Source: Medicago truncatula (lineage: Eukaryota; Streptophyta; Magnoliopsida; Fabales; Fabaceae). From it: DNA of 64,000 nt. Shown piece by piece: positions 1-32,058 of this stretch. Within the stretch, counting starts at the first letter, position 1, and each line of letters starts with the position of its first letter. Where the stretch lies: assembly GCF_003473485.1 (NCBI RefSeq), contig NC_053043.1:35502576-35566575 (forward strand). Reading direction: 5' to 3'. Position numbers and translations under genes: made by a program. The notes beneath the pieces were generated by a model. It saw only the letters and a program-made list of their open reading frames with translations. It was not told the origin of the DNA and searched no databases.

Positions 1-503
1 GCTTGGATTTTGTTTTGTAATTGGTATTTCTAGTCTGAATGTGTGTTTCTGGGTTTAATATGATGATTTATGGGTTTTCTTTTCATTTTTCAATTAGTTA
101 TGTAGCTTTTATTTTATTTTAAAATTAAAAAATTCCACAGTCAACATGTGACATGCCATCCACATCAATTTTGACTGAGTCAAAATCAAAGGGGACCATG
201 GATTTGCAAAGAGGGTGAAATTTAAGGGGGCAAAAGTGCTATTTTCAAACTTGGGGGTCAAAGATGCATTTTAGCCTAAATATTAATGGTGGGGGTTCAA
301 GGGTGTTACATATTACACAACGATACATACACGATTTTAAAAACCAAAGGGATGCCCATTTAGACACAAATAAAAATAAACAGATACAACAACCTTGCAG
401 TCGACAACAAACATAACAATTCGTGTGGGGCTAAACAATACTAAGATAATATAGAGGTAAGATATTGTACCGATAAAAGTAGAAAGGGGCTACAAAAACA
501 AAC

Positions 504-4104: not shown

Positions 4105-7100
4105 ATGGGATTGGAGTTAAGTTTCAGCTCAAAAAATGTGTTTTTTCACTTTTACATGATTTTATTGTTTAGTCTTGGAATCTTCTTTGTAAGTTCAATC
4201 AATGAAGAAGGTTCAACTCTTTTGAAGTTTACAATTACTCTTTTAGATTCAGATAACAATCTTGTTAACTGGAATCCTTCTGATTCAACTCCATGCAATT
4301 GGACTGGTGTGTCTTGCACTGATTCATTGGTAACTTCTGTTAATCTTTACCACCTTAATCTTTCTGGTAGTTTGTCACCTACTATATGTAATCTTCCATA
4401 TTTAGTTGAGTTGAATCTTTCCAAAAATTTCATCTCTGGTCCAATTTCTGAACCTTTTTTTGATAAATGTAATAAACTTGAGGTTTTAGACCTTTGTACT
4501 AATAGGCTTCATGGACCATTTCTATCTCTTATTTGGAAAATCAAAACACTTAGAAAACTTTACCTTTGTGAAAATTACATGTATGGTGAAATTCCAAATG
4601 AGATTGGAGAACTAATATCACTTGAAGAGTTAGTGATTTATAGCAACAACTTAACCGGAATCATTCCGAAATCAATCAGTAAATTGAAGAAGCTTAGAGT
4701 AATAAGAGCAGGTTTGAATGGTCTCTCAGGAACATTACCTTCAGAAATTAGTGAGTGTGATAGTTTAGAGACATTAGGGTTAGCACAGAATCAGTTAGTA
4801 GGTTCTATTCCAAAAGAGCTTCAAAAGCTTCAGAATCTTACAAATTTGATTTTATGGCAAAACTCTTTTTCTGGTGAGCTTCCTCCTGAGATTGGAAACA
4901 TTAGTTGCCTTGAATTACTTGCTTTGCATCAAAATTCGTTGATTGGTGATGTCCCGAAAGATATCGGAAGGCTATCGCGGTTGAAGAGGTTGTACATGTA
5001 TACTAATCAGTTGAATGGAACAATTCCACCTGAGTTAGGAAACTGTACTAATGCTGTTGAGATTGATCTTTCGGAAAACCATTTGATTGGTATCATTCCT
5101 AAAGAGTTAGGTCAAATCTCTAATCTTACCTTGCTTCACCTATTTGAAAACAATTTGCAGGGTCATATTCCAAAGGAACTTGGAAATTTGAGGCTGCTAA
5201 GAAATTTAGATTTGTCATTGAATAACTTAACTGGTAGAATTCCATTGGAGTTTCAAAATCTGGAACTCATGGAAGATTTGCAGTTATTTGATAATCAACT
5301 TGAAGGTGTGATTCCACCTCGTCTTGGAGCTGTTAAGAACCTTACTATTCTTGATATATCCGAAAATAACCTTGTTGGTAAGATACCGATCCATCTTTGT
5401 GAATATCAGCAGCTTCAATTCCTTAGCCTTGGATCAAATAGGCTCTTTGGAAATATTCCTTATAGCTTGAAAACTTGCAAGTCACTTGTGCAGTTAATGT
5501 TGGGAGACAATCTTTTGACAGGAAGTTTACCTGTTGAATTGTATGAACTTCATAATCTTACCGCGCTCGAGCTCCATCAGAACCGATTCTCGGGTTTTAT
5601 TAGCCCTGAAATTGGTCAACTTCGGAATTTAGTGAGGCTTCGCTTGTCAGATAATCATTTTTCTGGTTATCTCCCTTCTGAGATTGGAAATTTATCACAA
5701 CTTGTCACATTCAATGTCTCGTCTAACCGTTTAGGTGGAAGTATTCCAGACGAATTAGGAAACTGTGTGAAGCTGCAGAGGCTTGATCTTAGAGGGAACA
5801 AGTTTACTGGTATGCTTCCAAATTCAATTGGAAATCTTGTGAATTTGGAGCTACTAAAAGTCTCTGATAACATGCTTTTTGGAGAAATACCGGGTACTTT
5901 GGGAAACCTTATTCGGCTAACTGATTTAGAGCTCGGTGGCAATCGGTTTTCAGGACGCATCTCTTTTCATTTGGGGAGACTTTCTGCTCTTCAAATAGCA
6001 CTTAACTTGAGTCACAACAATCTTTCTGGTACGATTCCTGATAGCTTAGGGAGCTTGCAAATGCTAGAATCACTTTACTTGAATGATAATCAACTTGTCG
6101 GTGAAATTCCTTCATCAATTGGTGAGTTGCCTAGTCTTTTAACATGCAATGTATCTAACAATAAGCTGATAGGAGCTGTTCCTGACACAACTACATTCAG
6201 AAAGATGGACTTGACGAATTTTGCGGGGAACAATGGTTTGTGCCGTGTAGGTACTAATCACTGTCATCCATCTTTAGCTTCATCTCATCATGCAAAGCCA
6301 ATGAAAGACGGTTTATCAAGGGAAAAGATAGTGAGCATTGTCTCTGGAGTGATTGGTTTTGTTTCTCTTATTTTCATAGTTTGTATATGTTGGACTATGA
6401 TGAGGCGCCACCGCAGCGACTCTTTTGTTTCTATCGAAGAACAAACAAAGTCTAATGTATTAGATAACTATTACTTTCCAAAAGAAGGCTTCACTTACAA
6501 TGATCTCTTGGAAGCTACTGGAAATTTTTCAGAAGGTGAAGTTATAGGAAGAGGAGCTTGTGGAACTGTCTATAAAGCTGTTATGAATGATGGTGAAGTT
6601 ATCGCTGTCAAGAAGCTGAATACACGAGGTGGAGAAGGAACGAGTATGGACCGAAGCTTCCTTGCAGAGATTTCAACTCTTGGAAAGATCAGGCACAGGA
6701 ACATAGTGAAGCTGCATGGCTTTTGTTTTCATGAGGATTCAAATCTTCTCTTGTATCAATACATGGAAAATGGAAGCCTTGGAGAAAAACTTCATTCAAG
6801 TTCAAAAGAATGTGTATTGGATTGGAATGTTAGATATAAAATAGCTCTAGGAGCAGCAGAAGGATTATGTTATCTTCATTATGATTGTAAACCTCAAATC
6901 ATTCATCGCGATATTAAGTCGAACAACATTTTGCTTGATCATATGTTTCAGGCTCATGTTGGAGACTTCGGATTAGCAAAGTTGATCGACTTTTCATTAT
7001 CAAAATCTATGTCTGCTGTTGCTGGATCATTTGGCTACATTGCCCCAGGTACGAATAAGTTCAATACAAAGGTACTACATCAATTATACTTAGAAAACAT

Positions 7101-7735
7101 ATCAAGGGATAGTATAATTTCGCAACTGCAATAATTGTCGCAATATAAAAGATTTTGAAGTCGTCTTAATGGCATCGCAACCATAATTTCGACTGTATAG
7201 GCCATATGACCTCAATATATAGGTCGCAGTTACATGATTGTAATGTAAGACAATTGCGACTGCGACCACAATTTAGAATCATGATTGAGTCATTGTACCT
7301 TCTGCATTCTAATTATTGCTTGATTTATATTTATTTTCAGAATATGCTTACACAATGAAGGTGACTGAAAAATGTGACATCTATAGTTTTGGGGTAGTTT
7401 TGCTGGAACTAGTAACTGGTAGGTCACCAGTTCAACCATTGGAGCAAGGTGGTGATTTAGTGAGTTGGGTGAGGAGATCAATTCAAGCATCCATACCTAC
7501 ATCTGAATTATTTGACAAAAGATTGAATTTGAGTGAACAAAAAACTGTTGAAGAAATGTCTCTTATTCTAAAAATTGCACTGTTTTGCACAAGTTCATCT
7601 CCACTTAATAGGCCTACAATGAGAGAGGTCATTGCAATGTTGATTGATGCTAGAGAATATGTCAACCAATCACCAAACTCTCCTACATCTGAATGTCCAC
7701 TTGATGAATATAAAAGCTCTTCTTCCAAAGGTTAG
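4105..7735 (+). CDS. LRR receptor-like Ser/Thr kinase, At1g17230 type (subfamily XI)
   Basis: Two exons, 4105-7048 and 7341-7735, joined across a 292-nt GT-AG intron (phase 1), give 1112 residues, close to Arabidopsis At1g17230. A hydrophobic signal peptide (about 1-31) is followed by an LRR N-cap with Cys64 and Cys71, some two dozen leucine-rich repeats to about residue 705, a C-cap pair Cys713/Cys720, one membrane helix (about 743-767) and a kinase domain. The kinase has glycine loop [11 protein letters not shown] (815 on), Lys836 in AVKKL, an RD-type HRD at 934-936, and DFG at 954-956. The APE motif is split by the intron and rebuilt exactly on splicing, which fixes both splice sites. Expected role: plasma-membrane receptor for an extracellular, probably peptide, ligand with active cytosolic Ser/Thr kinase output; the ligand is unknown. 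The first in-frame ATG directly precedes the signal peptide. A possible extra 3' exon at 8562-8578 is discussed in the findings. Confidence 0.93.
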
Positions 7736-7941: not shown

Positions 7942-10099
7942 GAGAGTTTCATATTTCGGACAATTTTTTTTCCTTCTTTCTAAAATATATTTAGAATTAG
8001 GGAAAAATGTATTATTTTGATAGCTGATATAAGGGAGTAGATACTAGTATGAGATGTTCACTTGACAAAAGTAAGCGAATTTTTTATTTGTCTCTAGACT
8101 TGGATTCCCTCCAGTCAAATATCATTCGTTGGATTAATCTAACGATTGATAAGTTGATGGAGAGATAGGAGGGACTCCATACATTGCATTTGAAGAGAGA
8201 GAAACATTAAATTCTCACAAATTAGGGCTGGAAATGAGACGAGTCAAGCCGAACTCGTCTGAGCTCAGTTCGACTCAATAAGATTTGGTTCGGCTCAAAA
8301 CTCGACTTGATTTCGATACGAACTTGTGACAATATTTTATTGTATCAAAATTTCACATAAGATTGCATAAAAAATCACATAAGAGAATATATTCCTTTCT
8401 TCCTATATTATTTGCCCGCTAAAAATTTCATGGAATAGTGTACATCGGAACAATTCACCTCATACATTTTTTACGAAGTAATGACCTATTGAAATTCATA
8501 GATGAAATTTTTATTTATATATGTAGAATACATATTGACTTGTCATGTTTTGTGCATGCAGATGATAGTCTTGAGTAGTGAATTTGAAGAAGCTTCACTA
8601 TGTCCTCAAAGGAGAGTTATTTGAGCAATACATTTCCACATGTTTGAATCTTGATCAATGATGTCCCCTAGCTCAAATGAATAAATAACTTTACCTTAAA
8701 GAAAGTAAAAAATGCAATACTTTAACACAATCAGGATCATTTCCTTCATGTGCAAGTTCCTCTACTATGTTGTTTGACAAGTTTTCATCCAAAGGGTATC
8801 AAACAAGTCTAATATAGTATTTGTGATGATTCTATTAACATACCAAAACTCTTCTCAATGTAGACACTCTTTGTTTGATGCCTTAGATAGTGAGTTGAGC
8901 ATACAAAAATCTTTGAACCTTAAATTAATGATGACTATCTTTGTTTCAACCATATCCCTTTTTACTTTTAACTCATATCTCATTTTTACTTTCCTTTCAC
9001 TTTCACGCATTCTCTCAACCTCCTCCAACCTACCTTTTAAATATGTATAGTTGAACTACAAAGACCACATAAGATATGATCTATAAGTCAGGCTTGTTTG
9101 TAATTAATTTATTAATTCATCAATAAGAAACGTGTTCTATAAGTATTAAAATCATATAATTTAGTGCGAAATAATCAGATGAACATGCATATAAATTAGT
9201 ATCTACGACATTTTTGGTCTATCAAAGATAATTACTCTGTTATTAAAAATACTTGGATGAATATTTGATGGTAGCCTCTCCAAAATAAAAATTTGAAACG
9301 GAGAGAGACGGCGATTTGAAACACACAACACAGATGAACCTTTCATGATAGCCTCTCATAATTTGATCAAAACCAAAATTTCATTAAAAAAAACACCGTT
9401 CATAATTTAAATGCACTTCGTAATAAAAAAAAAAAAAGTGAAGATGGGACGTTAGTTACTATATAGATATTTTCCCACAAAATATAATTAAATAATAAAT
9501 CATTCCAGCAATCTCCCACTTGGACTACATATCGTAACAATTATATTAAAGTTATTTAGGGGCGCGTCTGAATGATATTTATCTTTAGATTTCCTATTTA
9601 CAATTTGGTTCACCTCATACATCAATAATGGAATCATCGTGGTTATTTTCAATGACGTATAACGTAACTAAATCCCAACGACCACCATATCAATACACTT
9701 TAGGACATAGATCAATATAGATGAGTGACATGGAAATTTCATCTAATGTGATCTCTAAATCATGCATATTTTCAACTGGTTAAACTGAAATCTTTAGTGA
9801 GATCAAACTAAAGTTTGCAAATTCAATATTTGCACAAACGATACATGAATGGTTACAACAATAATAAACTCATGAACTTTATTTCTACAGAAAATCACAA
9901 CGTAAAGTATGTATCAATATCAAAAACAAAAGTTTAAAACATAAAGGAATAGAAGACTCTCGCTAATCCAATACATCATTAGTGACAACAATTGAAACAA
10001 TTAACAAGAAATACTCCAATTGAAACAACATCTTTCTAACAAATCACAAACTAAAGACCTTGCTAAACTCTTATTTTTTAGGTATTGAGACATCCCAAT
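7942..10099. other. intergenic DNA with decayed repeats
   Basis: No convincing gene. The stretch 8225-8335 (agccgaactcgtctgagctc and similar) resembles a half of a dispersed plant inverted-repeat element. From 9510 to 10080 the sequence reads like an old, non-coding repeat that I cannot name. The 75-codon frame at 8823-9050 has no recognisable domain. Confidence 0.4.
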
Positions 10100-11090
10100 C
10101 TACGGATGGTCTGGGTGCATTTTATTTACATACTTCAACTTGAGGGAGTGAATTATCAACATGTCCCCAAAGGCCAAAACGCCCCCTAAAGGGGCCCGGA
10201 TACTGTTCCAAAGGGCATCATCCCTCACAAACATCCGAAAGCATGAAATAGTTTATGACCAATCCTCATAGATTCACCACTTCGCCTTGCCCTAAAGCTC
10301 GTGCTTGGGGGATGTGGACAGTTAATATATTCCTAAGGGCCTGAAAGTCCTCTATAAAGGCTCAGGCGCTCTCCAGAAGGGCTCCTGAAGACTAGACGTG
10401 CCCTTCCAGAGGTGCCACCTTAGTTAGCTTCTGGAAGCATCTAGAAGTAAGTAAAGACCTAGAAGCACAACTTGCTTGAAGCTTAAGTCACGCGATAACC
10501 AACCCACCAAGAGACTATAAATATTACTCTTGGGATCATTCTCAAGGCATGACCAATACAATACTCAGGCCCGTTCCTATGAAATATGAGGCTTGGTTCT
10601 ATTTTTAAAATAGGCCCCCGTAAAATCAAAATGCAATTCTTTTTGTGTACCTAATCTTCATTAAAAAAATCAGAATCAGAAGAACTTTTAAATACGAAAC
10701 AAAACAAAATAAAATTAAGTGAAAGAGAGGTGAACTTTACCTAACGGTGTCGTTTGGAATGTCACTCCTATGTCGTAAGAAAGGGGAAGACAAATGGTTT
10801 ATGCGAAAAAGAAATAATTGTTGTGATTCTTTCAATGAAATAATTTTTCAAATTGACTGAATAAGTGTTTATTCAAATTGATGGTGGTTTAATAGCATCA
10901 AATTTATGTCCAGAAAGTTGAACTAAAGTCTAAAAAAAAATCATACGTCTACTGAAGGAAAAAAAAGTAACAGGTGAGTATTATAATTTTTTTGAGGCCA
11001 TAGTTTTTAGAGGCTCGGTTCGGAAGTGCCTCTTGCACTCCTCAATGTCCGGTCCTAACAATACTGAACCCTAATATATGATATTGTACC
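10100..11090 (+). mobile_element. probable LTR remnant (solo or partial), interrupted by a hAT MITE
   Basis: The composition is richer in G+C than the surroundings. It contains a TATA-type signal (gactataaatatt near 10514) followed by the sort of text seen at LTR R/U5 borders. It carries on across the hAT insertion (10566-11057) as caatactgaaccctaa. I could not define termini or a target duplication, so family and limits are open; Ty3/gypsy is a guess. A fossil without coding sequence. Confidence 0.4.
10566..11057. mobile_element. non-autonomous hAT-like element, 8-bp TSD
   Basis: The 8-mer acaatact is present on both sides (10558-10565 and 11058-11065). The ends are short imperfect inverted repeats (caggcccgttcct left, the complement of ggtccta right, with gaggc/gcctc motifs inside). 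The 8-bp duplication and CAGG-type end point to hAT. At 492 bp it has no transposase frame. Confidence 0.7.
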
Positions 11091-11344
11091 GACTACAAGT
11101 ATAGTGGGATGTTGATATTTAACTAAATAATAATTGGAATAATTGTAAATATATTTTAGTTACTCGGAAAGGTTCTTAGCATAGCAAATTTATTAGCATA
11201 CTACGTAACAAATTATTTAATTAATTCTCTTACTTATGTAATTCTCTATATTATAGAAAATCTGGGATGCTCTTCAAACACACGGTTTCAATAAATACCT
11301 TTCATATTTTTTTATTTATTTATTTTTTTTAAATAAAATGACAA

Positions 11345-11455
11345 AATTATTATAAACTCATGCAGATAAGTGAAGGTGCCGACGTTCGAATCTCGATCAT
11401 GATGTTCGGTCTAACAATTTCAATATTTTTTTGCCAATTGAGGTAGAACTTATTA
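11345..11455 (-). mobile_element. decayed SINE-like / tRNA-like segment
   Basis: On the minus strand a stretch like a tRNA A-box (gttctacctcaattggc) is followed by a B-box-like gattcgaacg, in the same order as the copy at 551-640. It is too degenerate for a firm call and has no clear tail or target duplication. Confidence 0.35.
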
Positions 11456-11886
11456 ATATTCTCTTACTTTTCTATTTCAATAGACCTATAATTTTGTCCA
11501 TAAAAAAATTATCATATGATACTTTTAATTGCTAGAGACATTTTGTCATCAACCATCATTATTGTTTTTTTTGTCACATCAATCATTATTATTGTTATTC
11601 TTCTGATATGTTTCCGTTGTTTAACATAAAAGACTAAAAGAGAGAAATAAAGAAATATATAAATGTTCAATAAAAAAAGAAAAAAGAACTTTGACGCACA
11701 TCAAAATTTTATATGATATTTTTACCGAAGTTAAGGGATTGATTGATTGATCGAGAGAAAGGGAAACACGACACACTAACGTTCCTTAGATACATTTAAC
11801 AATAACTCCAATTTTATAAATGGTCTCTTATAACTTGTAAATGATAAAAACTATTTAATTAAAGTTAAAAGGCATGGATTTCTTTT

Positions 11887-11895
11887 CTTATAAAG
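11887..11895 (+). promoter_or_regulatory. TATA box candidate of the NCR-like gene
   Basis: cttataaag lies 47 nt before the ATG of the cysteine-rich peptide gene. A start about 30 nt downstream would give a very short leader. Confidence 0.45.
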
Positions 11896-11941
11896 CGATC
11901 CAATGATTTTCTATTTATTACATATACAAAAAAGAGAAAGT

Positions 11942-12240
11942 ATGAATCCAAACATCAGATTATTTTATGCTTTGATTATCTTTCTTTCTCTTCTACTTAT
12001 TCTAACCGATGGTGGTCTAATCAACGGTGGTAGGTCTTCATTTTTCATACCAAATTTTAATTTCTAATTTTTCTTACACGCAATATTTCACCAACCTTTT
12101 TAAAAAAAAAAAATTGTTTTATGATCGTATTGGCCATTGCAGGTTCTGTTCCTTGCTTGACTAGCTTTGGTTGTCCAAGAAGTACATGCTACCCTCCTTC
12201 AACACCAAATTGCATTCGTCGTATTTGTGAGTGCATCTAA
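11942..12240 (+). CDS. NCR-like secreted cysteine-rich peptide (nodulin-late type)
   Basis: Two exons, 11942-12029 and 12143-12240, with a GT-AG intron of 113 nt in phase 1, encode 61 residues. Exon 1 is almost entirely a signal peptide: Arg6 followed by a hydrophobic core (about 7-21), with cleavage somewhere around residues 23-30. Exon 2 holds the mature peptide with six cysteines at 34, 40, 45, 53, 58 and 60. The spacing C-x5-C-x4-C-x7-C-x4-C-x-C and the proline-rich third loop are those of six-cysteine NCR peptides, and the intron between signal and mature part is also typical. The family is known from IRLC legumes, expressed in nodule cells and delivered to symbiosomes, where members drive bacteroid differentiation or act on bacteria. 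Function of this member, including nodule expression, is inferred only. The mature part (about 31 residues) has four basic (Arg42, Arg55, Arg56 and at most one more) and few acidic residues. Alternative: another small defensin-like secreted peptide. Without splicing the exon 1 frame ends soon after the donor, so the gene is easily missed. Confidence 0.85.
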
Positions 12241-13456
12241 GTATAACAATTAAGTTAAAAACATAATTGTATGTTACTTGTAATTGAATAATTTATATGT
12301 ACGTCATAATGTTGGCACTCATACAATTTTTGTCAATTTCAATTCATTTGGTTGATCTAGAAAACTCTCATTAGAGGATTAGTGGATGAAATTAGTACTT
12401 GTTATTAGGCTGGCCGTACTAATTGCTAGTGGCCTTTACTTTTTTTTTTATTTTTTTATTTTCGCACCGGTTTTCAACCCATAAAAAATGGACAACTAAT
12501 CCGACTCGTATGTAGAGGAGGCATGTGCACCGGCCAAACCTTTACTTTTAATGCTACTGTGATGATTCACATATTTATGTTCTATATTAGACACATTTGG
12601 TTGTAAATGATACACCTTAAAGAATACAATACAAAGGCTATCTTATTCACTTTTCGTTCTTCCATCTTCATCTATACTCTTTTAATATATAGCTCTAATT
12701 TTGATTTCATGTCTTCTATGATGAATTTTTTTCTCTTCTACTTCTATGTTTCCCTCCCTCTCTTGCTTTCTATATTCTCTTGAAGTTGTTAAGTTGTCAT
12801 ATATTTTTATCCATTTTTTTTTTGTTACATCGAAAAACAAGCTAGTCCTTATGTCATTGAGACGGGCAAAATAGCTTGTTTTGGCAAGCATGTGTGGAGC
12901 TAATTTATTTTAATTTTAAAAATTAGTTGGCCACGGTTGAATGATGTCTTTTTAATTTCAACGTTTCATATTTAGTCGATAATGCTTTACCCGACCTAAG
13001 AAATTGTGTTTTGGTTGACTCATAATTTGACTCAATAATTGTTGAATGTTGAGTCATTTGATATTAGGTCTGATGCAGATCTGACTTAAGAAGTCATTTC
13101 TACTTGATTTAAAAGTGTTTCTTGCATTAGTGAGAGAAATTTGAGTTATAATATAAGTTTTGAGAGAAAATTTTGTGTTCGAGGTATGAATCATACACAT
13201 CATAAGACTCGATAAAAGAACATGTAAATTAGTTTTAATTTTTTTTACCCCTTGTGAATTAAACATTCTTTTAATTAAAATATAATCTCTCTCCACTAGT
13301 CATTTGATGGCATCAAAACATTCATGTAATTAAAATCTACCATATCCCAATTCCTCTTCATTAAAATCTTTCCTCTTCCTTTGCTTGAACCAAACAAACC
13401 TAATGAAATAGAATGACAAACCATTATACATTAGACTTATTTGGGCTAAAAAAAAA
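12241..13456. other. intergenic DNA, no gene seen
   Basis: AT-rich with scattered repeat-like text (for example a G+C-rich patch at 12460-12535 containing ggcatgtgcaccggcc). Minus-strand frames at 12682-12891 and 13054-13296 lack any recognisable domain. Confidence 0.5.
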
Positions 13457-14159
13457 GAGTAATGATAACTAGACACAAAATATTTGACACAAATACGACA
13501 CCATGGGTAGTTTGGATATTTCCACCATTAAGCAGGGGTAGTTTTGTCAAATCCCATAGACCCATCTTCTTCCCAATCTCATCTTCTCTGCATTCTCTCT
13601 CAGTTCCTCACCACAGACAGCACCATTCTCCAAACCACCGCCTTCCTCTCCCGCCGTCGTCCTCACCACCGCAGCCTGCATCCTCACAATCATTTGTCCT
13701 CATCAGTGGCAACCACCACCGTCCTCGCCACCATCAACCCGTTCAGATCTGGATGCGACGACGACGAAATCTTCTCCCTCTCGTCGCCGGAGTCCCGTTC
13801 AGATCACCACCACATCGGACATCAAATCTGTGACGACCGTGGTCACCGTTGATTGTGAGAAACCTCGAGGGAGAGAGAGCAGTGAGAACTCGAGGGACAA
13901 AACACACAAAGATAGCACATGAGATAGGTGGAGGTTGCGACGACGTTCAAAGGAAGATGACCGGAGGTTGCGGCGGCGTTCAAAGGTAGATGACCGTAGC
14001 AAGTTGAGAGAGACCGTAGGGATGCAAGAAAGAGAGAAGGTGGATTGCAGAAAGACAAGAGAGAAGAGAAAATAATAATAATAAAATATATGGTATAAGT
14101 GAACAGTTGTATATGGTGTTGTATTTGTGTCTAAAGTTTTGTGTTTGTTTATCATTTCT
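13457..14159. mobile_element. non-autonomous TIR element, about 0.7 kb
   Basis: The two ends are inverted copies for about 48 nt: left aatgataactagacacaaa then gacacaaatacgacaccat, and the complement of the right end is nearly the same. The inside is C-rich on the left and purine-rich on the right, which creates long frames on both strands that I consider non-coding. The ends lie in A-runs, so the target duplication and superfamily (Mutator-like is possible) are not determined. Confidence 0.65.
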
Positions 14160-14225
14160 GAAAGAAAAAAAAAAAGATGAATATGAGTTATTTTATGGAT
14201 GAGTAATTAAAAACGATGAGGGAGT

Positions 14226-17200
14226 CAAGATGTATAATGGTTTCAGATCTAGCCATATGTCTTCTCTCTAGAAAAATCCAGGTCCCTCTCCCTCCGTCCA
14301 TATACGCCGTACACGGCTAGTCAAGATGTAGCCATCTGTTGGGTGGTACGCACGCCTCTCGCGGCTGCACCACCGCCTTCGACCTTCTGAAAGGGTCACG
14401 CCGCTGTGTCGGAGCTGATGCAGTGGAGGCTGCTTCTTCCCTTCTTGGGTCTTTTTTTTTCTGGTTTGTTTCATCGTTGTGTTCCAATTTTGTATTTTTG
14501 ACCCGACCTCATCTATTGCTGTTTTGTTTCAATGTTTTCAGATCTGGTTCTGTTTTATTCCAACGTTATGTTTGTTTTGTCTCTAGATCTGGTTTCTGTT
14601 TTATCTCTTCATTTTAGATCCGGTTTCAGGCACGGCTGGGTGCTGCGCCGGCGACCTCATCTTTGTTGCTCACGTGTTTTATGTGGTGATGAGGTGTTGT
14701 GGCGAGGGGACGTGATGCTCTGTGTAGGCGGATGTCACGAGTTATGGTGGCTTGTGGTGGAGATGGTTGTTTTTTGGTGGTGATGGGGGTGGTGGTTCGG
14801 TTGGAGTTTTATGTGGTGATGTGATGAAGTGGTGGAGCTGTGTGGGGTGCTGGTCCTGGCTGTTGGGTGCCGGAGGAGAGGGTGGTGGTTTTTTGCGCCA
14901 CCGTCCTCTTTGGGTGCCGCAGGTTTTTGTTGTGTTTTGCTCGTTTGTTTGTGTTGGTTTCGACGATCTTTTTTCTGTTGTGGTCGTTGTGTTTGGTTTT
15001 CTTGTGGTGTTTTATTCTGTTGTGTTGTTCTCTGATGTAGTATTTTTGCATCAAACAATTGTAAGTATTTATATCGTCTCCTCAGGGACTAGTGCGATAT
15101 CGCGGACCGTTCGACACCAAATACCATTCCAAGTTAAAAAGATAATTGGTTGTTTGTTTTAGTAACTCATTTGCAAACGATAAAATTGAGATTAATAGGG
15201 CGTGAAACTTGTTAGGATTAGAGTTCCTTGATCAAGCGTCGCACGTAACCTAATGATCATACATGGATTCTAGCTTTTCTTTGATATTATCACGTATCCC
15301 TCGACAACACTATTCGTGTCCAAACAATATTGTGAAATCAATTGTATCATTCAATCGTCGATCTTATCGTCCAATCGATGATTTCTCGATCTATTGAATG
15401 CTAAGAAAGCTTTAGGTTTGGATACACAAAGTGATTATCAAAACATCGATTCCATGTCTAGAACCTATGTTTTGATAGATGGTTATTCTAAACCTAGATT
15501 CAAAAGTATTTCTCAATCACAATTAAATCAAAGATAAAGATTAAAGTGCAAGAATAACATCAATATCAAATCAAATGCTAGAACCATATATTTATAGATC
15601 AAAAGATTACATGTTAAGCTAAGATCAAGTACCTCTAATCCCAACAAAGGAGATTTAGCTACTCATTGTCATGGAAGCCTTGCAAGAATGAATTTAAGGA
15701 GAAAGATTCATTTACAACTTGTGATTTCTCAACAAAGAATGAAGAATCCACTCTCTATCACTCTCACTCTATGAAGAACAAGCCCTATCTCTCTCTCTAG
15801 AAATATTACAAGTGAAAAACTCAGAGAAAAACTAAGTAAAAAAACTATATCAATGAAATGGTTGAGTGGGCTATTTATACAATTCTGACTCTGCATCAAC
15901 TCGCCTCGCGAGCTCATTCATTCGCCATGGCGAGTTGAGGTTCCTTCGCCATTGGGTTTGTGCCACGTCAGCTGTGAGAGGCTAAACTGCCCTAACTCGC
16001 CTTCCACTCGCCATTGCGAGTTGGTGGCGAAAGATCTTTGATGCTTACTGGAATTGCTCGCCTTTGATGCTTGCCATGGCGAGTTGGAGGCGAGGGATCT
16101 CATTTTTCTACCTTTTTGTACTCTTCTCCATTTTCTTCTCTTTGCTTGATATCTTGAGTTCGAATCCTGCACAAATGGGTGAAGTAAGATAGATAAAGCG
16201 TAAAAGGGCAATAATCACTTATTTCTCGGCTTTTCCCTCAATAACTTGCAAAACAAGTAACAAAAGTGCCTAAAATATATCACTTAAAATACAACTTTCT
16301 AGCACTTATCATTCTCTCTCGGTGGATCTTGTCTCACGATGATTCTCTAAGAAGTTTTGGTGTCCGTCTGCTGTTTTTGTGCTTTTCTGAAGTTGCTTGA
16401 AAGGGTTTGGTGCGTAGACACTCCGTGATGGCGGTAGTAGTCATTCATGTACCTTTCAAAATTTGGGTCTTTTTGGGTTGTGCTAGTGGGTTCTTGTGGA
16501 GTTTTGGTTTTGGTTGTTGTTTACTCCGACAATGGTCGCTTTCTTCTTGCCACTGGCGGACGCCATTCTTTGATTTGGGGTTGTGTTTCCGCTTCAGACC
16601 GGCGTCGCTGCCCAAGTTTTGTTGTTTGGTTTCGTCTCCCTCTGGTCATGAGTTTGTGTTGCTGTTTGTTTCTTGGAGAGGTGGTTTGGTAGTGTAGTTT
16701 ACTTTCAGCCTTGCTATCTTGCTCTTGTATTTGCTGATCCTTTTGGTTGTGTCTAGTTTTAGTTTCGTTTTGTTTTTGTTCCATAATGTTGGTTTTGGTG
16801 TTGTTATTGCTGTTTAGTTTTTGGGTGCATTAGCCCATATTTCTTTTTCGGTGGTTTGGCGTCGTTCTAACCCGATATGTGGTGTTGCAGTGTTGGTCGT
16901 GGTGATGGTTATGCAGGGTTGGTGGTGGTGGTGATGTGTGGTGGACGTGGTGATTCGGTAAAAGGGGATGTTGATGTTGCTTAGGTGTGCATGTGCGTGT
17001 TTTTGTGGAGGATTCCTTTCAGAGGCTGCCTCTGGTATTCAGGTCCATATTCGTTGTCGCTACCTCTTGTTTGAAGTTGTTTGGGTTGCTTAGGTGTTCA
17101 GGTTGCATGTCCTTTGAGCTGAGCTTGTTTTCCATGTTGATTGATGTTTGCACCACCGCAATTCATGTTGTCTGTTTTACTTGTTGTGTGCTGGATTCTG

Positions 17201-17756: not shown

Positions 17757-19533
<1,777 letters not shown>

Positions 19534-23115: not shown

Positions 23116-26100
23116 CCCCCCCTCAAGTTGGTGCATAGATATCTATCATGCCCAACTTGTCTATCAAATGCTCAAAGGTGGGTCTTGCCAAGCTTTTGGT
23201 CAAGATATCTGCAGTTTGTTGACTCGAAGTAACAAAAGGTAGACATATTATTCCAGCATCTAACTTCTCCTTTATAAAATGTCGATCAATCTCAATATGC
23301 TTGGTTCTATCATGTTGAACTGGGTTATGAGCTATGCTAATAGCGGCTTTACTGTCAGAGTATAATTTTAATGGAAGCTCAATTTTCATCTTAAGTTCTT
23401 CTAGAACTCTATGGATCCATAATCCTTCACAAATACCTTGAGCCATAGCTCTGAACTCAGCTTCTGCACTACTTCTTGCTACAACTCCTTGTTTCTTGCT
23501 TCCCCATGTCACAAGATTACCCCAAACATAGGTACAATATCCTGAGGTTGATCTTCTGTCTGTGACTGAACCTGCCCAATCAGCATCGGTGAAGATAGAC
23601 ACATTTCTTTCACTAGTCTTCTTAAAAAATAAGCCTTTTCCGGGATTTCCCTTCAAATATCTCAGTATCCTATAGACTGCCTCAAGATGTTCCTCGAAAG
23701 GAGAATGCATGAACTGACTTACTACACTAACTGAAAAAGCAATATCAGGTCTGGTGTGTGACAAATAAATCAATTTCCTAACCAATCTCTAGTATCTTCC
23801 GGTATCAACCAGAACACTACCTTCTCCCCAAAGCTTAACATTAGGATCCATAGGGGTATCTGCTGGACGACATCCACTCATTCCTGTTTCTTTTAATAAG
23901 TCTAAAATGTATTTCTGCTATGAAACCACAATACCCTTCTTTGATCGTGCAACCTCCATACCAAGAAAATATCTCATGGATCCCAAGTCCTTAATTTCAA
24001 AGTCTACTGCTAATTTCTCTTTTACTCTTGCCATTTCTACTGTATCATCTCCAGTAAGGACAATATCATCAACATAAACAATCAGGACAGCGATTTTTCC
24101 ATCGTGGGAGAACTTTGTGAACAAGGTGTGGTCAGTCTGTCCTTGAATGTACCCTTGTTTCTTCATGGATTGAGTGAATTTTTCAAACCAAGCTCTTGGA
24201 GACTGCTTTAATCCATACAAAGACTTATTTAGTTTGCATACATTTGATTCAAATTTCTTTTCAAAACCAGGAGGAATGTCCATATATACCTCTTCTTCTA
24301 GATTTCCATTGAGAAAAGCATTCTTAACATCCAACTGATGTAGAGGCCAATCCAGATTAGCAGCAAGAGACAAGAGAATTCTGACGGTGTTCAATTTTGC
24401 AACTGGAGCAAATGTCTCAGAGTAGTCTATACCATAGGTTTGAGTAAATCCCTTAGCCACCAAGCGAGCCTTGTACCTTTCAATTGACCCATCTGAATTA
24501 TACTTCACAGTGAACACCCATTTGCATCCAACCGTCTTCTTGTCATCTGGTAATGTCGTGACACTCCAGGTTTTGTTCTTTTCAAGAGCTTTCATCTCCT
24601 CAAATACGGCTTCCCTCCACTTTGGAATTTCTAGAGCAACCTATACATTTTTTGGAATTTCTACACTAGACAATTTTGAGGTGAAGGCAGACAAGGGTGA
24701 AGACAAATTTGAATATGATATAAAATTGGACATAGGGTGTTTAGTGCAAGATCTAACAGGTTTTCTAATGGCAACATGATCATCTATATCAGGATACAAA
24801 ATATGACTCTCAGAAACAGAGATAGACTTGCCTTTCCTTTTCTTAGGAGGTTGATCATTCCCCGGTTCAGATTCATGACAGTGTTGAGATGTGGACTCAT
24901 CCCTTTCTTTGTGGTGCTTTTTCACAAGAACCTTCTCTTTCCAAATCCTGTTTCCTAGTTCAAATTTGTTCTCTTTAAGTGACTCATTATTTTGTGGCAT
25001 TTCAATTAGATCATCATTATCAAGTGCTTCAAGATTCTCATTGTTTTCTACATGAGAAAATGTAGGCTCGGATTCACCAAGTTCCTTACTCATAACATGA
25101 GTAGGATCAGATAAAGAATCATGTCCATTTTCTATTGGTGCAGAAGTATAAGTCTTAGAACTTTGTGATACAGGCAAAGACAATTTATTTGAAAAACTCA
25201 TGTCCTCAGTTTGAAAGGAGTCTTCCTTTATATCCCCCCCTTGAAGATGAGTGTTATCAAAAAAAGGTTTATTTTCAAAGAATGTAACGTCCATAGTGAC
25301 AAACATTTTCTTGTTTTTTGGATCAAAACATTTATATCCCTTTTGGGTTGGAGAGTATCCAACAAAAACACATTTTATAGCACGTGGTTCAAGTTTTCCA
25401 ACATTTTTATGTTCATGAACAAAGGCCGTGCAACCAAAGATTTTTAATGTCAAACCAGTTGAAACACGAGTACTAGGAAAACATTCTTTGAAAGTATTAA
25501 TCGGGGTTTGAAAGTTGAGAACTTTGGAAGGCATTCTATTAATTAAATATGCAGCTGTTAAAACAGCTTCGCCCCACAAGTAGTTTGGTACTTTACTTGA
25601 GAAAAGTAAGGCTCTAGCAACCTCCAATAAATGCCTATTTTTTCTTTCAGCAACTCCATTTTGTTGAGGAGTATTGGGACATGAACTTTGATGTACAATC
25701 CCATTTTTAAGAAAAAAATCATCCAAAATAGTGTTAAAATATTCTTTGCCATTATCACTTCTAAAGACTTTAATATTTGTTTGAAATTGGTTTTGCACCA
25801 TTGTAATAAAATCCTTTACAACCTGACAAACATCGGATTTCCCCTTTAACAAGTACACCCAACATACTCTTGAATGGTCATCTATAAATGTGATAAACCA
25901 TTTTTTGAGTGAAAGTGTACTTGTACGGTTAGGGCCCCAAACATCACTATGAATAATAGAAAAAGGTTTTGATGGTTTATAAGGCTGTATTGGAAATTGG
26001 GAACGATGATGCTTTGCAAATTCACATGCTTCACATTTAAACAAAGAAAAGTTCTTATTATGAAATAACTTAGGAAACAAGTGTTTTAAGTAACGAAAAC

Positions 26101-27317
26101 TAGGATGACCTGATCGTAAATGCCACAACATAACGTCGTCATCATTATTATTCAAAACAAGAAAAGATTCAAAGCAAGAACTTATTGGTTTTGAAGGTAG
26201 TTGTGATGCAGATCCAACGTCAAGGTAGTAGAGTCCTCCACTCTTCTTAGCACTGCCAATAATCTTCCCCGAGTTCAAATCCTGAAAGACACAGTGAGAT
26301 CGGAAAAAATTAGTTTGACAATTTGCATCTTCGGCTTATTTACCGACAGACATTAAATTACATGATAATTTTGGAACATGAAGAACATTTTAAAGAGATA
26401 ACTCTAGAGACAACACAACTGACCCTTTACCTGCAACGGCTGAAAAAGAGCCATCTGCAATTTTTATTTTTTGATTACCTGCACATGGACTATATGAAGA
26501 AAACAAAGTGGACTCACCTGTCATGTGATCAAAGGCACCTGAATCTACTATCCAAGTATGACTGGGACTGACACTAAGAAAAGCAGAATTACCTTTTGTT
26601 GCTATAGAGCAAGAAAGAGTTGGAGACTCGAGGAGTTTGTACAACTTGTCTAGTTGTTCCGTAGTGAGTTGAAGCTGAGTTGAAGAGGATTGCTGCCCTT
26701 GATCAGAATTACTAGCCTGAAATGCACAATCACCTTTCTTCTTCCAGTTAGGTGGTTTGCCTTTGAACTTCCAACAATTTTCACGCGTATGCCATTCCCG
26801 TTTACAGTGATCACTCCAAGGATTGTTTGACATTTTATCATGAATAACCTCTGCCATCTTTAAAGGAAGAGAGCAACAAACAGCCACCAAAGCCAAATTG
26901 CTGGCAAACTATAATCAACACTGTAAATTAAAGAAAACTAAAAAACCAAGTGTCTCCAATCTGAATTTTGACCGCTCAAATAGAACAGGAAAGCGCCGAT
27001 GAAGAAACTGATGTAATACGGCGAGAAACGGAAGTCTGGAAGGCGGCGCGTGGTACGCACGCGGCGACAACGTTGCTGCGAATAGACCTCACACGCCGGT
27101 ATAGAAGAAGCGCGTGGAGGCGCGTGTAGCAGTGAACGACGGCGGGATTTTCGACGTTTGACTCGGTTTTTTGTTCTGGTTCTGATGGTCTGGTCAGTTA
27201 TTAGCATCCGGTGATCGGACACACAGTGATGATATACTTGGTAATAGAGGTACAACATAAGTACCTATAATTACGCGGAAGCGAGACCCCCAAACACCAA
27301 GAGCTCTGATGCCATAT

Positions 27318-27524
27318 TGAAAGATAATAGGTTAATACTTTTATGATTTATTCCTCAGCCAAAGGCTGGTTTTTATAGAGAGAATACAATTAATGTTCTC
27401 TTAGACTAGCCTAGAAAATTGTTACATTGGAAAAATGACAATGAAATTCTCTAGATTTGACTAGAAAATAATATCATAGGGAACAATAACATAGGAAAAT
27501 CAATTATTGATGTATTTTCCAACA
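27318..27524 (-). repeat. 5' LTR of copia element A
   Basis: 207 bp, TG...CA, directly followed on the minus strand by the tRNA primer site. It contains tttataga-type TATA text on the plus strand as in the other copy. Confidence 0.93.
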
Positions 27525-30500
27525 ATATACATACCTTCTGTAATAATGATTTTATTAATGAGAATTCACTTTTATCATTCTTGTCTATTTTCTAATATGG
27601 TATCATGCGCCTTCTCCCATGGGGAAAGGTAGTTACGATCCTCAACAACCTCTAACCACTTTTCTCCGTTGTGCTTTCTCTTCCGATCATCTTCATTGAT
27701 CGTTTCTTTGTTTGATTCATGGTGCTAGCAATCTTCCTTTGCACTTTGATCTTCATTTCTTGTTGAAATCTCTGTTTTTTTTTGTTTGATTGAGTTTATC
27801 TTCAATCTTACTCTTTTCTTGTTTTCTTCTTGATCTTCTTCTTGTTCGTTGTAATTGATTCACACGTTGTTCATTGTGTTTTTGTTCATCCAAGTGAAGG
27901 TCATAATTCACTTTCTATCACTACTAAACTCATCGGTTCGAACTACATTGCTTAGAATCGCACTATTCAACGTTCGTTGGGAACGAAGAACAAATTAGGG
28001 TTTATCAATGGTTCTATTCCAATTCCAGATTCTGATGATTTGAACCGCGCAGCTTGGGAACGATGCAACCATGTGGTACAATCTTGGCTTACTAATTTTG
28101 TTTCTGATTTCATTGCTCAAACTATTGTTTTCTATGATACTGCCTTTGATGTTTGGCATGATCTGCAAGAAAGATTTTCTAAGGTTGATCGTATACGCAT
28201 TGCTAATCTGCGTTCTACCATTAACAACCTCAAGCAAGGTTCTAAATCTATATTGCATTATTTCACTGAAATGAAGGCACTTTGGGAAGAATTAGCTTCA
28301 CACAGACCCATTCCTAGTTGTTCATGGATTCACACATGTCGTTGTGAAGCTTCTAGAGTTGCTAAAACTCATAGGAATGACGACTAGATCATGCAGTTTC
28401 TTACAGGTCTCAATGATCAGTTTCCTGTTGTCAGGATACAAGTTTTGCTCCTTGACCCTCTTCCCTCATTGAACAAGTAACATTCATTAGTTGTTCAAGA
28501 AGAAAGCAACAATGCTTCTCTTTCTTCTTTGAGTGTTTCTGATGATTCCTCTATTCAAATCAATGCTTCTGAAACTAGAAAGTTTCAAGGTCATGGCAAG
28601 AGTTTTTCTCAACATAAGCCTGCTAGGTTTTGCACCTTCTACAACTGTACCAACCACACTGTGAATTTCTGCTATATGAAGCATGGCTATCCCAATATTA
28701 AAAAAGCTCAACCTAGAATTAATGTTGCTACTCATGAAGAGAATGATGCTGGTAACTCCTCCTCTCTTGGTGCAGGTGCTTCTGTAAGTTCCAACACTGG
28801 TTTTTCTCAAGAACGGTTAGTTCAACTTGCATCCTTGTTACAACAAGCTAACTTGGTTGTTCCTTCATCCCAAGCTACTTCTAACCACATTGCAGCTACC
28901 CCCTTGATTTCCACCAGTATTTGTGCACATGAGTCATCTTCTGCAAGTATAATACCAAAACCCTCATATTTGTTACTTGATTCAGAAGCTAATGAACAAA
29001 TTTCCCTGCTATCTCTCTTGTTTCAGTTCATTTTATAGAATTAAACCTGATCATGTTTCTTTACCTAATGGAAATTCCATTTTGGTTATTATGCTGGTAT
29101 TGCTTCTTTTACTTCCAATTTTTATCTCAGTCATGTTCTTTATTCACCAACATTTACTCTTAATATCATTTCTGTTGCTAAGTTGTGAGTCTTTATCCTA
29201 TTCTTTACACTTTACTCTTGATCATTGCATCATACAGGACACGCTATCTTTTAAGATGATTGGTTTGGCTAAGCAACTGGATGACTTATACAAATACATT
29301 CCATCTTCATGTACTTCAAATTCTATGTCTTTTAGTTTTTCCAATAAATCTTGTAATGTTGTTTTACCTCGTTCATGTAATTCTAGCAATAGTATTCCAT
29401 CTAATGCCTTGTGGCACTTTAGACTTGGTCATTTATCTCACCAAAGACTTCACTCTATGTCTCTTTTGTATCCCAACATTATCAATAACAATAATAAAGA
29501 TGTCTGTGATTTGTGCCATTTTTCTAAACATAAACATTTATCTTTTACTTCTAGTAATTATCATGCTTCTACCAATTTTGAACTTATTCATCTTGACATT
29601 TGGGGTCCATTATTCATTGCTTTTGTACATGGACACAAATATTTCCTTACTATATATGACCATAACAGATTTCTTTGGGTGATTTTACTTAAAACTAAGG
29701 CTGGAGTGTCTACACATGTCAAAAACTTCATAACCATGATTCAAACACACTTTCATACTACCCCTAAATTCATTAGAACTGTCAATGGTCTTGAATTCAT
29801 GCTTTCTGACTTTTATGCTTCACATGGTATGTAGAGCCTTACTTTTCCAAACCAAACTCCCTCCTTCCTTCTGGTCTTATGATATCCTTCATGTTGTGTT
29901 CCTCACCAATAGAGTCCCTACACCTGTACTTAATAATCAATCACCTTATTTTGTATTGCATAACAAGTTACCTAACCTCAATTTGTTCAAAGTATTTATA
30001 TGTTTATGCTATGCTTCAACCCTTCATTCTCACAGAACAAAATTACAACCCAGAGCTATAAAATCTCTTTTCTTAGGATACAAATCAGGTTACAAGGGAT
30101 TCACCCTTTATGATTTATATTCTAGAGAGATATTTGTATCCAGACATGTCACTTTTCATGAAAATTTTCTTCCCTATCATCTTACTTCTTCATCCACACC
30201 ACCTGATTGGGAATATTTTTCACTATCTCCTTCATCTGATATTACAACTCCTATACCTACTTCTCATACTCCTGAATCACCAGCAATCATAGATGATATT
30301 TTCCTTATTTCCCATAATCTTGACCCCCCATCTCCACCACCTTTACCTGTTGTTCCTGTCATTCCCAGACATTCCACCAGACAAACCACCACTCCTTCTT
30401 ACTTACAAGATTATATATGCAATAATATTCATTCTTCCACGTATCATATACATCATTACATTTCACATCACAATTTATCTAATAGTTCATCTTCTTTTGT

Positions 30501-32058
30501 TATGTCTCTTCACACTACCACCGAACCAAAATCATATGTTGAGGCAAGCAAGCATGACTGTTGAAAACAAGCCATGCAAGTTGAACTTCAAGCTCTTGAG
30601 AAAACTGGTACCTGAGAACTTGTTGATTTACCACCAAATGTCAAGCCCATGGTTGTAGATGGATGTACAAAGTAAAACATCATGTTGATGGATCCATTAA
30701 GAGATATAAAGCAAGGTTGGTAGCTAAAGGCTACAATCAGATTGAGGGACTTGACTCTTTTGACACTTACTCTCCTGTTGCTAAGCTCACAACTGTCAGG
30801 CTTGTCATTGCTTTGTCGTCAATACACAACTGGAATTTACATCAACTTGATGTTAACAATGCTTTCCTTCATAGAGATTTACATGAAGATGTTTATATGA
30901 TTATCTCTCCTGGTATTAAATCTGACAAAGCAAACCAAGCATGAAAGCTCAATAAATCCCTTTATGGTTTGAAACATGCTAGCAGAAAGTGGTATGAGAA
31001 ATTAATATTTGTGCTTTCACATCAACAATATGTTCAAGCTTCACCTGATCATTCACTGTTTGTCAAGAAAACTTCTCATTCATTCACTATTCTTCTAGTA
31101 TATGTGGATGATATGATCCTAGCTGGTGACTCCCTCACTAAGTTTACTCTCATCAAGTCTATTTTGGATGCTTCATTCAAAATTAAAGACTTAGGTCAGC
31201 TCAAATATTTCCTTGGCATTGAAGTGCCACATTCAAAGCTTGGTATTTCTCTATGTCAGAGAAAGTACTGCCCATATTTACTTGAAGATTCAAGAACTAT
31301 AGGCTCCAAACCTGTTTCCACTCCCTCTGATTCTTCTCTCAAACTTCACCATGATTCTAGTCCTTCTTATGATGATATATAATCTTATAGAAGACTAGTA
31401 GGCAGGTTACTTTATCTTAATACCACTAGACCTGACATTACCTTCATTACACAACTGCTAAGCCAGTTTCTTTCACAACCTACACAAACACATCATGTTG
31501 CTGCTTTAAGGGTTCTAAGATACCTCAAAGGTTGTCCAGGAATATGTTTGTTCTTTCCTAGAAATTCTTCTATCAATCTGCAAGGGTTTTCTGATGCAGA
31601 TTGGGCAGGTTGTATTGACACCAGAAGATCTATTTATGGTCAGTGTTTTTTCTTAGGAAATTCACTAATTTCTTGGAGAACTAAGAAACAAATTATTGTT
31701 TCTAGGTCTTCATCAAAAGGGGCCTTAGCATCTGCTACCTGTGAACTCCAATGGATTCTATACTTATTTCAGGATCTCAACATATCTTGTCCTAAATTAC
31801 ATGTACTCTACTGTGATAATCAGAGTGCTCTTCATATAGCAGCCAATCCAATTTTCCATGAACGCACTAAGCATTTGGAAATTGACTGTCATCTAATCAG
31901 GGAAAACTTCAAGCATGCATCCTCAAGTTGCTCCCAGTTCCTTCTCAGGATCAAGTGGCTGATTTTTTTCACTAAAGCTTTGCTTCCCAAGCCTTCCAAT
32001 ATTCTCCTGTCCAAGTTGGGATAGATAAACATTTATCAATATCCATCTTGTGGGGGGC

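Follow-up and report, generated by a model that had tools for sequence, protein, structure and literature searches.

An apparently intact six-cysteine NCR gene in two short exons of the Medicago truncatula genome

NCR genes are described as consisting mostly of two exons, encoding a signal peptide and then a mature peptide, and members with six cysteines are assigned to group B (PMC9515463). Nearly all of the NCR genes tested are reported to be expressed only in nodules, with five genes of relaxed specificity among 334 probe-sets (PMC4168050). Five motifs have been defined in NCR promoters, and according to the account in PMC3613412 they occur in combination only upstream of NCR genes, as judged against 33,131 other annotated genes; 400 bp of promoter was described there as necessary, not sufficient, in reporters. 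For NCR169 a promoter of 436 bp was found sufficient, and in this gene the motifs follow the order 2-1-4-5-3, transcription starts 23 nt before the ATG, and AHL factors bind the motif-4 region, the AHL-binding H0 region resembling motif 4 (PMC9946822). The number of NCR genes is given as 678 in A17 Mt5.0, and for R108 as 20 from its own gene pipeline and then 616 from a family-based search (PMC8862580); a family-based method for finding such genes has also been described (PMC3924332).

Here we analyse a stretch of 64,000 nucleotides of Medicago truncatula (the window; C2:35502576-35566575 in a genome of 430 Mb and 42 contigs) that contains an NCR-type gene at 11942-12240. Its structure, its family, the resemblance of its upstream DNA to NCR promoters and its paralogues lead us to conclude with high confidence that this is an apparently intact, functional-looking six-cysteine (group B) NCR gene with a secretion-signal exon 1 and a cysteine-domain exon 2. 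The neighbouring genes include:

4105-7134 and 7355-7735, plus strand: frames of an LRR receptor kinase
18383-18709 and 19210-19533, plus strand: frames of a glutathione S-transferase

The window also holds repeated DNA. A stretch of about 707 bp at 13456-14162 has 47-nt inverted ends (83% complementary), is 98% identical to C7:45216841-45217546 and is probably a recently moved DNA element. High-copy dispersed repeats, with dozens of listed matches over contigs C1 to C8, occupy 15032-16311 (about 1.28 kb) and 9481-9991 (about 0.51 kb). Retrotransposon-like frames, Copia-type as judged by eye, extend over both strands of 23123-32024, and the minus-strand frame at 24641-26278 carries GAG-pre-integrase and integrase domains.

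Gene structure and family membership

Translation of the plus-strand exon pair 11942-12029 and 12143-12240, spliced across a 113-nt GT..AG intron, gives a peptide of 61 residues, MNPNIRLFYALIIFLSLLLILTDGGLINGGSVPCLTSFGCPRSTCYPPSTPNCIRRICECI, with the cysteine spacing C-x5-C-x4-C-x7-C-x4-C-x-C. The gene is made up as follows:

11942-11944, plus strand: predicted start codon ATG
11942-12029, plus strand: exon 1, 88 nt; 29 codons, MNPNIRLFYALIIFLSLLLILTDGGLING (signal peptide and following residues), then the first base of a split codon
12030-12142, plus strand: intron, 113 nt, GTAGGT...GCAG, phase 1
12143-12240, plus strand: exon 2, the six-cysteine domain and stop (TAA at 12238-12240)

An earlier note on this DNA had given the same exon coordinates, phase 1 join, peptide length and cysteine spacing, all of which proved exact on translation. 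Its further remark that simple gene calling misses such a gene is fair in principle, the difficulty being a known one by the accounts in PMC3924332 and PMC8862580.

Among several GTs, the donor at 12030 looks best by splice consensus (context GTG/GTAGGT, with the slash at the exon border), and the acceptor context is ATTGCAG/GTT. Use of the alternative donors at GT 12012, 12015 or 12027 would leave the cysteine domain unchanged and remove 6, 5 or 1 residues before it. Because the 12027 donor scores slightly higher on a profile of NCR products (43.7 versus 42.7 bits for the 12030 model), the exact choice of donor is left unsettled by the sequence, which is one small uncertainty in the model. 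An in-frame ATG is also present upstream, at 11903. If transcription begins as in NCR169, its start would lie near 11919, downstream of this ATG, and for this reason 11942 is the likely start codon. The predicted mature peptide has about 37 residues. An assumed cut after residue 24 gives a net charge of about +1.7 and a pI of 8.35, a cut after residue 22 a computed net charge of +0.7 and a pI of 7.78, and the predicted charge ranges from about +0.7 to +1.8 across the assumed cleavage sites and cysteine states.

The comparison with Pfam Nodulin_late (PF07127) that the earlier note had proposed gave 48.3 bits for the 61-residue product (E 1.3e-12; profile positions 1-54 of 54), against a curated gathering cut-off of 30.4 bits. 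Because this profile includes the signal peptide, parts of the product were also scanned singly against Pfam, with families listed to E 10. Residues 1-30 alone reached 21.8 bits (Nodulin_late positions 1-25), exon 2 alone (SVPC..ECI) 21.3 bits (positions 28-54) and the mature part, residues 21-61, 24.4 bits, each score being below the cut-off; Nodulin_late was the sole family matched by each separately scanned part at E up to 10. Since the signal-peptide exon and the cysteine exon lie in different frames, each is supported independently. The N terminus is a hydrophobic signal peptide, of which residues 1-25 align to profile positions 1-25 and for which cleavage is assumed.

The genome contains at least 159 Nodulin_late matches, each exon being counted separately. 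The spacing x5-x4-x7-x4-x1 recurs in 12 of 73 NCR products, a sample comprising 59 read-through products and 14 of 15 two-exon models (L078 was omitted as too long). Nineteen two-exon loci entered the intron comparison, four of them yielding no model (L069, L072, L074 and L087), and in all 15 modelled genes the intron of the top-ranked model is phase 1 and 81-114 nt long; phase 0 occurs in models of lower rank for L073, L078 and L085. An intron between the signal-peptide and mature-peptide exons is usual, not required, in NCR genes, because many NCR loci of this genome read through without one at that place. The full-profile PF07127 score, the position and phase of the intron, the cysteine spacing and the close paralogues elsewhere in the genome together bear out the assignment to the NCR/nodulin-late family made in the earlier note.

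In a set of 60 NCR loci with strong Nodulin_late matches (L009-L068), 59 run from an ATG start through the signal peptide to the cysteine domain in one frame, a share that is unrepresentative because the search favours continuous frames. No intron is evident between the two parts in this set, and a few of its members may conceal a short one.

The region upstream of the start codon

Single-sequence BLAST at E 1e-3 gave matches to 11500-11950 from 8 of 78 NCR upstream regions (5 of 59 read-through and 3 of 19 two-exon loci), and many other matches of these regions were scattered through the window, presumably at repeats. Promoter profiles were built because this signal was weak. The 350-bp profile covers the 350 bp nearest the start of each of 78 other NCR genes: 80 loci were chosen from the listed Nodulin_late matches, and two (L056 and L088), with no ATG at the match start, were dropped. 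These genes were selected by protein match only, so the promoter test is free of circularity.

The 350-bp profile has a single significant place in the 64 kb, immediately before the gene (97.3 bits, E 1.3e-29); the runner-up in the window has an E of 0.49, and a shuffled window yields nothing better than E 0.19. This place is also recovered by five other versions of the profile, with E values from 1.8e-22 to 2e-31, and over all six the next-best match in the window has an E of 0.1 and the best in the shuffled window an E of 0.17. In a 5-fold hold-out the region scores 83.4-96.3 bits, exceeding 27 of the 78 held-out NCR promoters and lying below their median of 144.5 bits, while 300 random pieces of the window, taken from the plus strand only, score at most 1.7 bits. 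The region and the NCR promoter motifs in it are:

11568-11938, plus strand: NCR-type promoter region, the 350-bp profile match, ending 3 bases before the ATG
11611-11651, plus strand: NCR motif 2, weak; 31 of 41 consensus positions, rank 3 of 127,920 (both strands)
11786-11826, plus strand: NCR motif 4; 37 of 41, rank 1 of 127,920; starts 156 bases before the ATG
11828-11868, plus strand: NCR motif 5; 38 of 41, rank 1 of 127,920; starts 114 bases before the ATG
11871-11920, plus strand: NCR motif 3; 44 of 50, rank 1 of 127,902; starts 71 bases before the ATG

The motif 3 match encloses a TATAAA at 11889-11894. The best place for motif 1, which overlaps motif 2, is unconvincing (rank 62, with 27 of 41 positions). 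With motif 2 weak as well, the full set is not evident here, and only three or four of the five motifs are seen. Their order, 2-4-5-3, agrees with the order 2-1-4-5-3 given for NCR169 (PMC9946822). Taken together, the upstream DNA favours nodule expression of the 11942 gene, a point left open in the earlier note.

A DNA search with 11400-12900 listed 42 matches, with 40 of 406 candidates scored. Besides the query itself and two copies treated below (L120 and L121), 39 matches are listed, of which 36 cover or overlap the upstream region and exon 1 (query 167 to about 617, some extending beyond) and the remaining three are located further downstream; these are matches at the DNA level, NCR identity aside.

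Paralogues and alternative readings

The closest relative of the gene, L120, is a two-exon copy on the minus strand at C2:36264883-36265176, 0.75 Mb off. It is identical at 57 of 61 residues, with the same splice positions, an intact frame and all six cysteines kept, and its intron has the donor GTAGGT, as in the target, and the acceptor GTAG. L120 lies in a duplicated segment of about 1 kb (C2:36264702-36265713) that is 94% identical to the target stretch, and its aligned upstream 400 bp is about 96% identical to that of the target. The residue changes from target to L120 are A10D, I20V, G25D and R55L, the last of which loses a positive charge between Cys4 and Cys5. Four nonsynonymous and five synonymous changes separate the pair (dN 0.029, dS 0.126, ratio 0.23, Fisher p 0.035). 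Any sign of selection in this comparison is weak, because there are only 9 substitutions and because the neighbouring non-coding DNA has diverged to about the same degree (0.027-0.038), so that dN is no lower.

The third copy, L121 (C2:31330664-31331308), has kept the upstream region and about two-thirds of exon 1 and is missing exon 2: homology ends near window position 12000 and restarts at 12952, with unrelated DNA in place of the exon. The surrounding segment, C2:31329164-31332808, is a decayed relative of the duplicated segment. A 984-bp stretch of the window (10108-11091), lying some 850 bp ahead of the NCR gene, is absent at that place in L120 and L121, and some 490 bp of it matches dozens of places in the genome at 77-90%; for these two reasons it is probably a transposable-element insertion, and we treat it as a candidate.

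The gene might instead be an NCR copy that was silenced recently: it would still look like a gene, persisting through recent duplication, although its expression and any need for it had been lost. This reading would fit the location of the target in a recently duplicated stretch with a 94% identical copy, the loss of exon 2 from L121, a dN equal to the local non-coding divergence and the presence upstream of the 984-bp stretch that both copies lack. We nevertheless consider it unlikely, because both the target and L120 have an open frame, intact splice sites and six cysteines, because an NCR-type promoter precedes the target and is closely matched in the aligned upstream DNA of L120, and because the synonymous rate exceeds the nonsynonymous rate.

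Returning to the gene as an intact NCR member, its more distant relatives L122 and L093 have the intron at the same place in alignments judged by eye. For L122 the model script ranked a 70-nt intron first and the alignment-fitting 103-nt intron second, both of them phase 1; for L093 it gave no model, and the donor and acceptor in the alignment read GTAAGT and GTAG. The L122 donor is 15 nt earlier in the alignment than that of the target, and the segment before the cysteine domain thus seems to be five residues longer in the target and L120 than in L122. It is conceivable, if speculative, that the target and L120 form a young pair in which a donor shift has lengthened the segment before the cysteines and an R-to-L change has altered the charge, the effects of the two peptides on bacteroids beginning to diverge as a result.

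Less probable still than silencing is a reading in which the product is one of the defensin-like (DEFL) members of this family, acts in defence and is expressed in organs other than nodules, such as roots or seeds. The atypical N terminus could point this way: the start MNPNIRLF, of a different kind from the MAxxLKFVY type, is uncommon for an NCR peptide, as the earlier note had observed, and the few genes of relaxed specificity reported in PMC4168050 provide precedents. The note's further suggestion of a divergent or non-nodule member becomes less likely given the NCR-type promoter in the upstream DNA. Only three or four motifs are seen here of the five-motif combination described as peculiar to DNA upstream of NCR genes (PMC3613412), and nodule-only expression is the reported rule among the NCR genes tested (PMC4168050).

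For chance controls, we enumerated two-exon structures along both strands of the 64 kb, requiring a GTA or GTG donor, an intron of 65-350 nt, a product of 45-95 residues and at least four cysteines, and scored the resulting 574 candidates on a profile of 73 other NCR products. The top six, at 39.4 to 43.7 bits, are all versions of the 11942 gene that differ in start or donor. No candidate from another locus in the window exceeds 17.3 bits, and in two order-4 Markov shuffles, which yielded 468 and 446 candidates, the maxima are 8.5 and 9.1 bits. The exon pair at 11942-12240 is more than chance. Accidental joining of a hydrophobic open frame to a cysteine-rich frame is conceivable in that T-rich introns can translate as hydrophobic stretches, and the 159-base protein match of L093 seems by eye to extend into its intron in the alignment, but the PF07127 match of the whole product and of its parts, the conserved copies, the promoter profile match and the enumeration against shuffles make this so improbable that we dismiss it.

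Several other places in the window were considered and rejected. Upstream, 25 nt of exon 1 recur at 10869-10893, a repeat that was considered as a second copy and is taken as chance; its surroundings contain no signal-peptide or cysteine exon by eye, and the cysteine pattern scan lists nothing there. The cysteine-dense frames at 14820-14954 (plus strand) and 308-409 (minus strand) are absent from the best 8 of the 574 two-exon candidates. The 17.3-bit second-best locus, on the minus strand, resembles the C-terminal part of a glutathione S-transferase, its letters having been judged by eye. A six-frame pattern for at least five cysteines, the promoter profile and the best 8 of the 574 two-exon candidates revealed no further NCR-like gene in the 64-kb window.

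Predicted role and comparison with known systems

For the nodule expression, splicing, secretion, disulfides and target of this peptide we argue by analogy with the NCR family. With AHL factors bound at motif 4, the promoter would become active in infected cells of the nodule, and the intron would be spliced out of the transcript. The signal peptide would then direct the product into the nodule secretory route, and the peptide would fold with three disulfides, arrive at the bacteroids and help to modulate or terminally differentiate them. Because its predicted charge is mild, a modulating rather than a strongly membrane-killing role is suggested.

The 11942 gene is most likely an ordinary member of the large known NCR family and may well be among the 678 genes counted in A17 Mt5.0. 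Four fragments of the peptide are absent from the main texts searched; NCR lists sit in supplementary tables, so this has no bearing on annotation. The analysis thus adds, or re-finds, one member of a Medicago family of about 700 peptides that governs rhizobial symbiosis, and leaves the picture of that family unchanged. It also provides a case in which a two-exon peptide gene could be recognised from raw sequence and was then backed by an independent line of evidence, the promoter.

Compared with Medicago NCR group B (PF07127), the gene has the same signal peptide and six-cysteine domain, the same phase-1 intron between them and an NCR-type promoter. It differs in starting with MNPNIRLF, whereas the MAxxLKFVY type is common among the NCR loci fetched, and in the length of exon 1, which at 88 nt exceeds the 73-79 nt of the 15 two-exon genes for which models were obtained. 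Among solved structures, a phmmer search with the mature part finds chickpea NCR13 (PDB 7th8, 8ulm) as the sole notable match (E 0.0034, or 0.0093 with the whole product), with one other at E 5.2. The cysteine spacing of NCR13 is identical to that of the target, its cysteines being given as C4, C10, C15, C23, C28 and C30 (PMC11637438). By contrast, NCR13 is described in the same source as antifungal and as having a net charge of +8, compared with about +0.7 to +1.8 predicted for the product of the 11942 gene.
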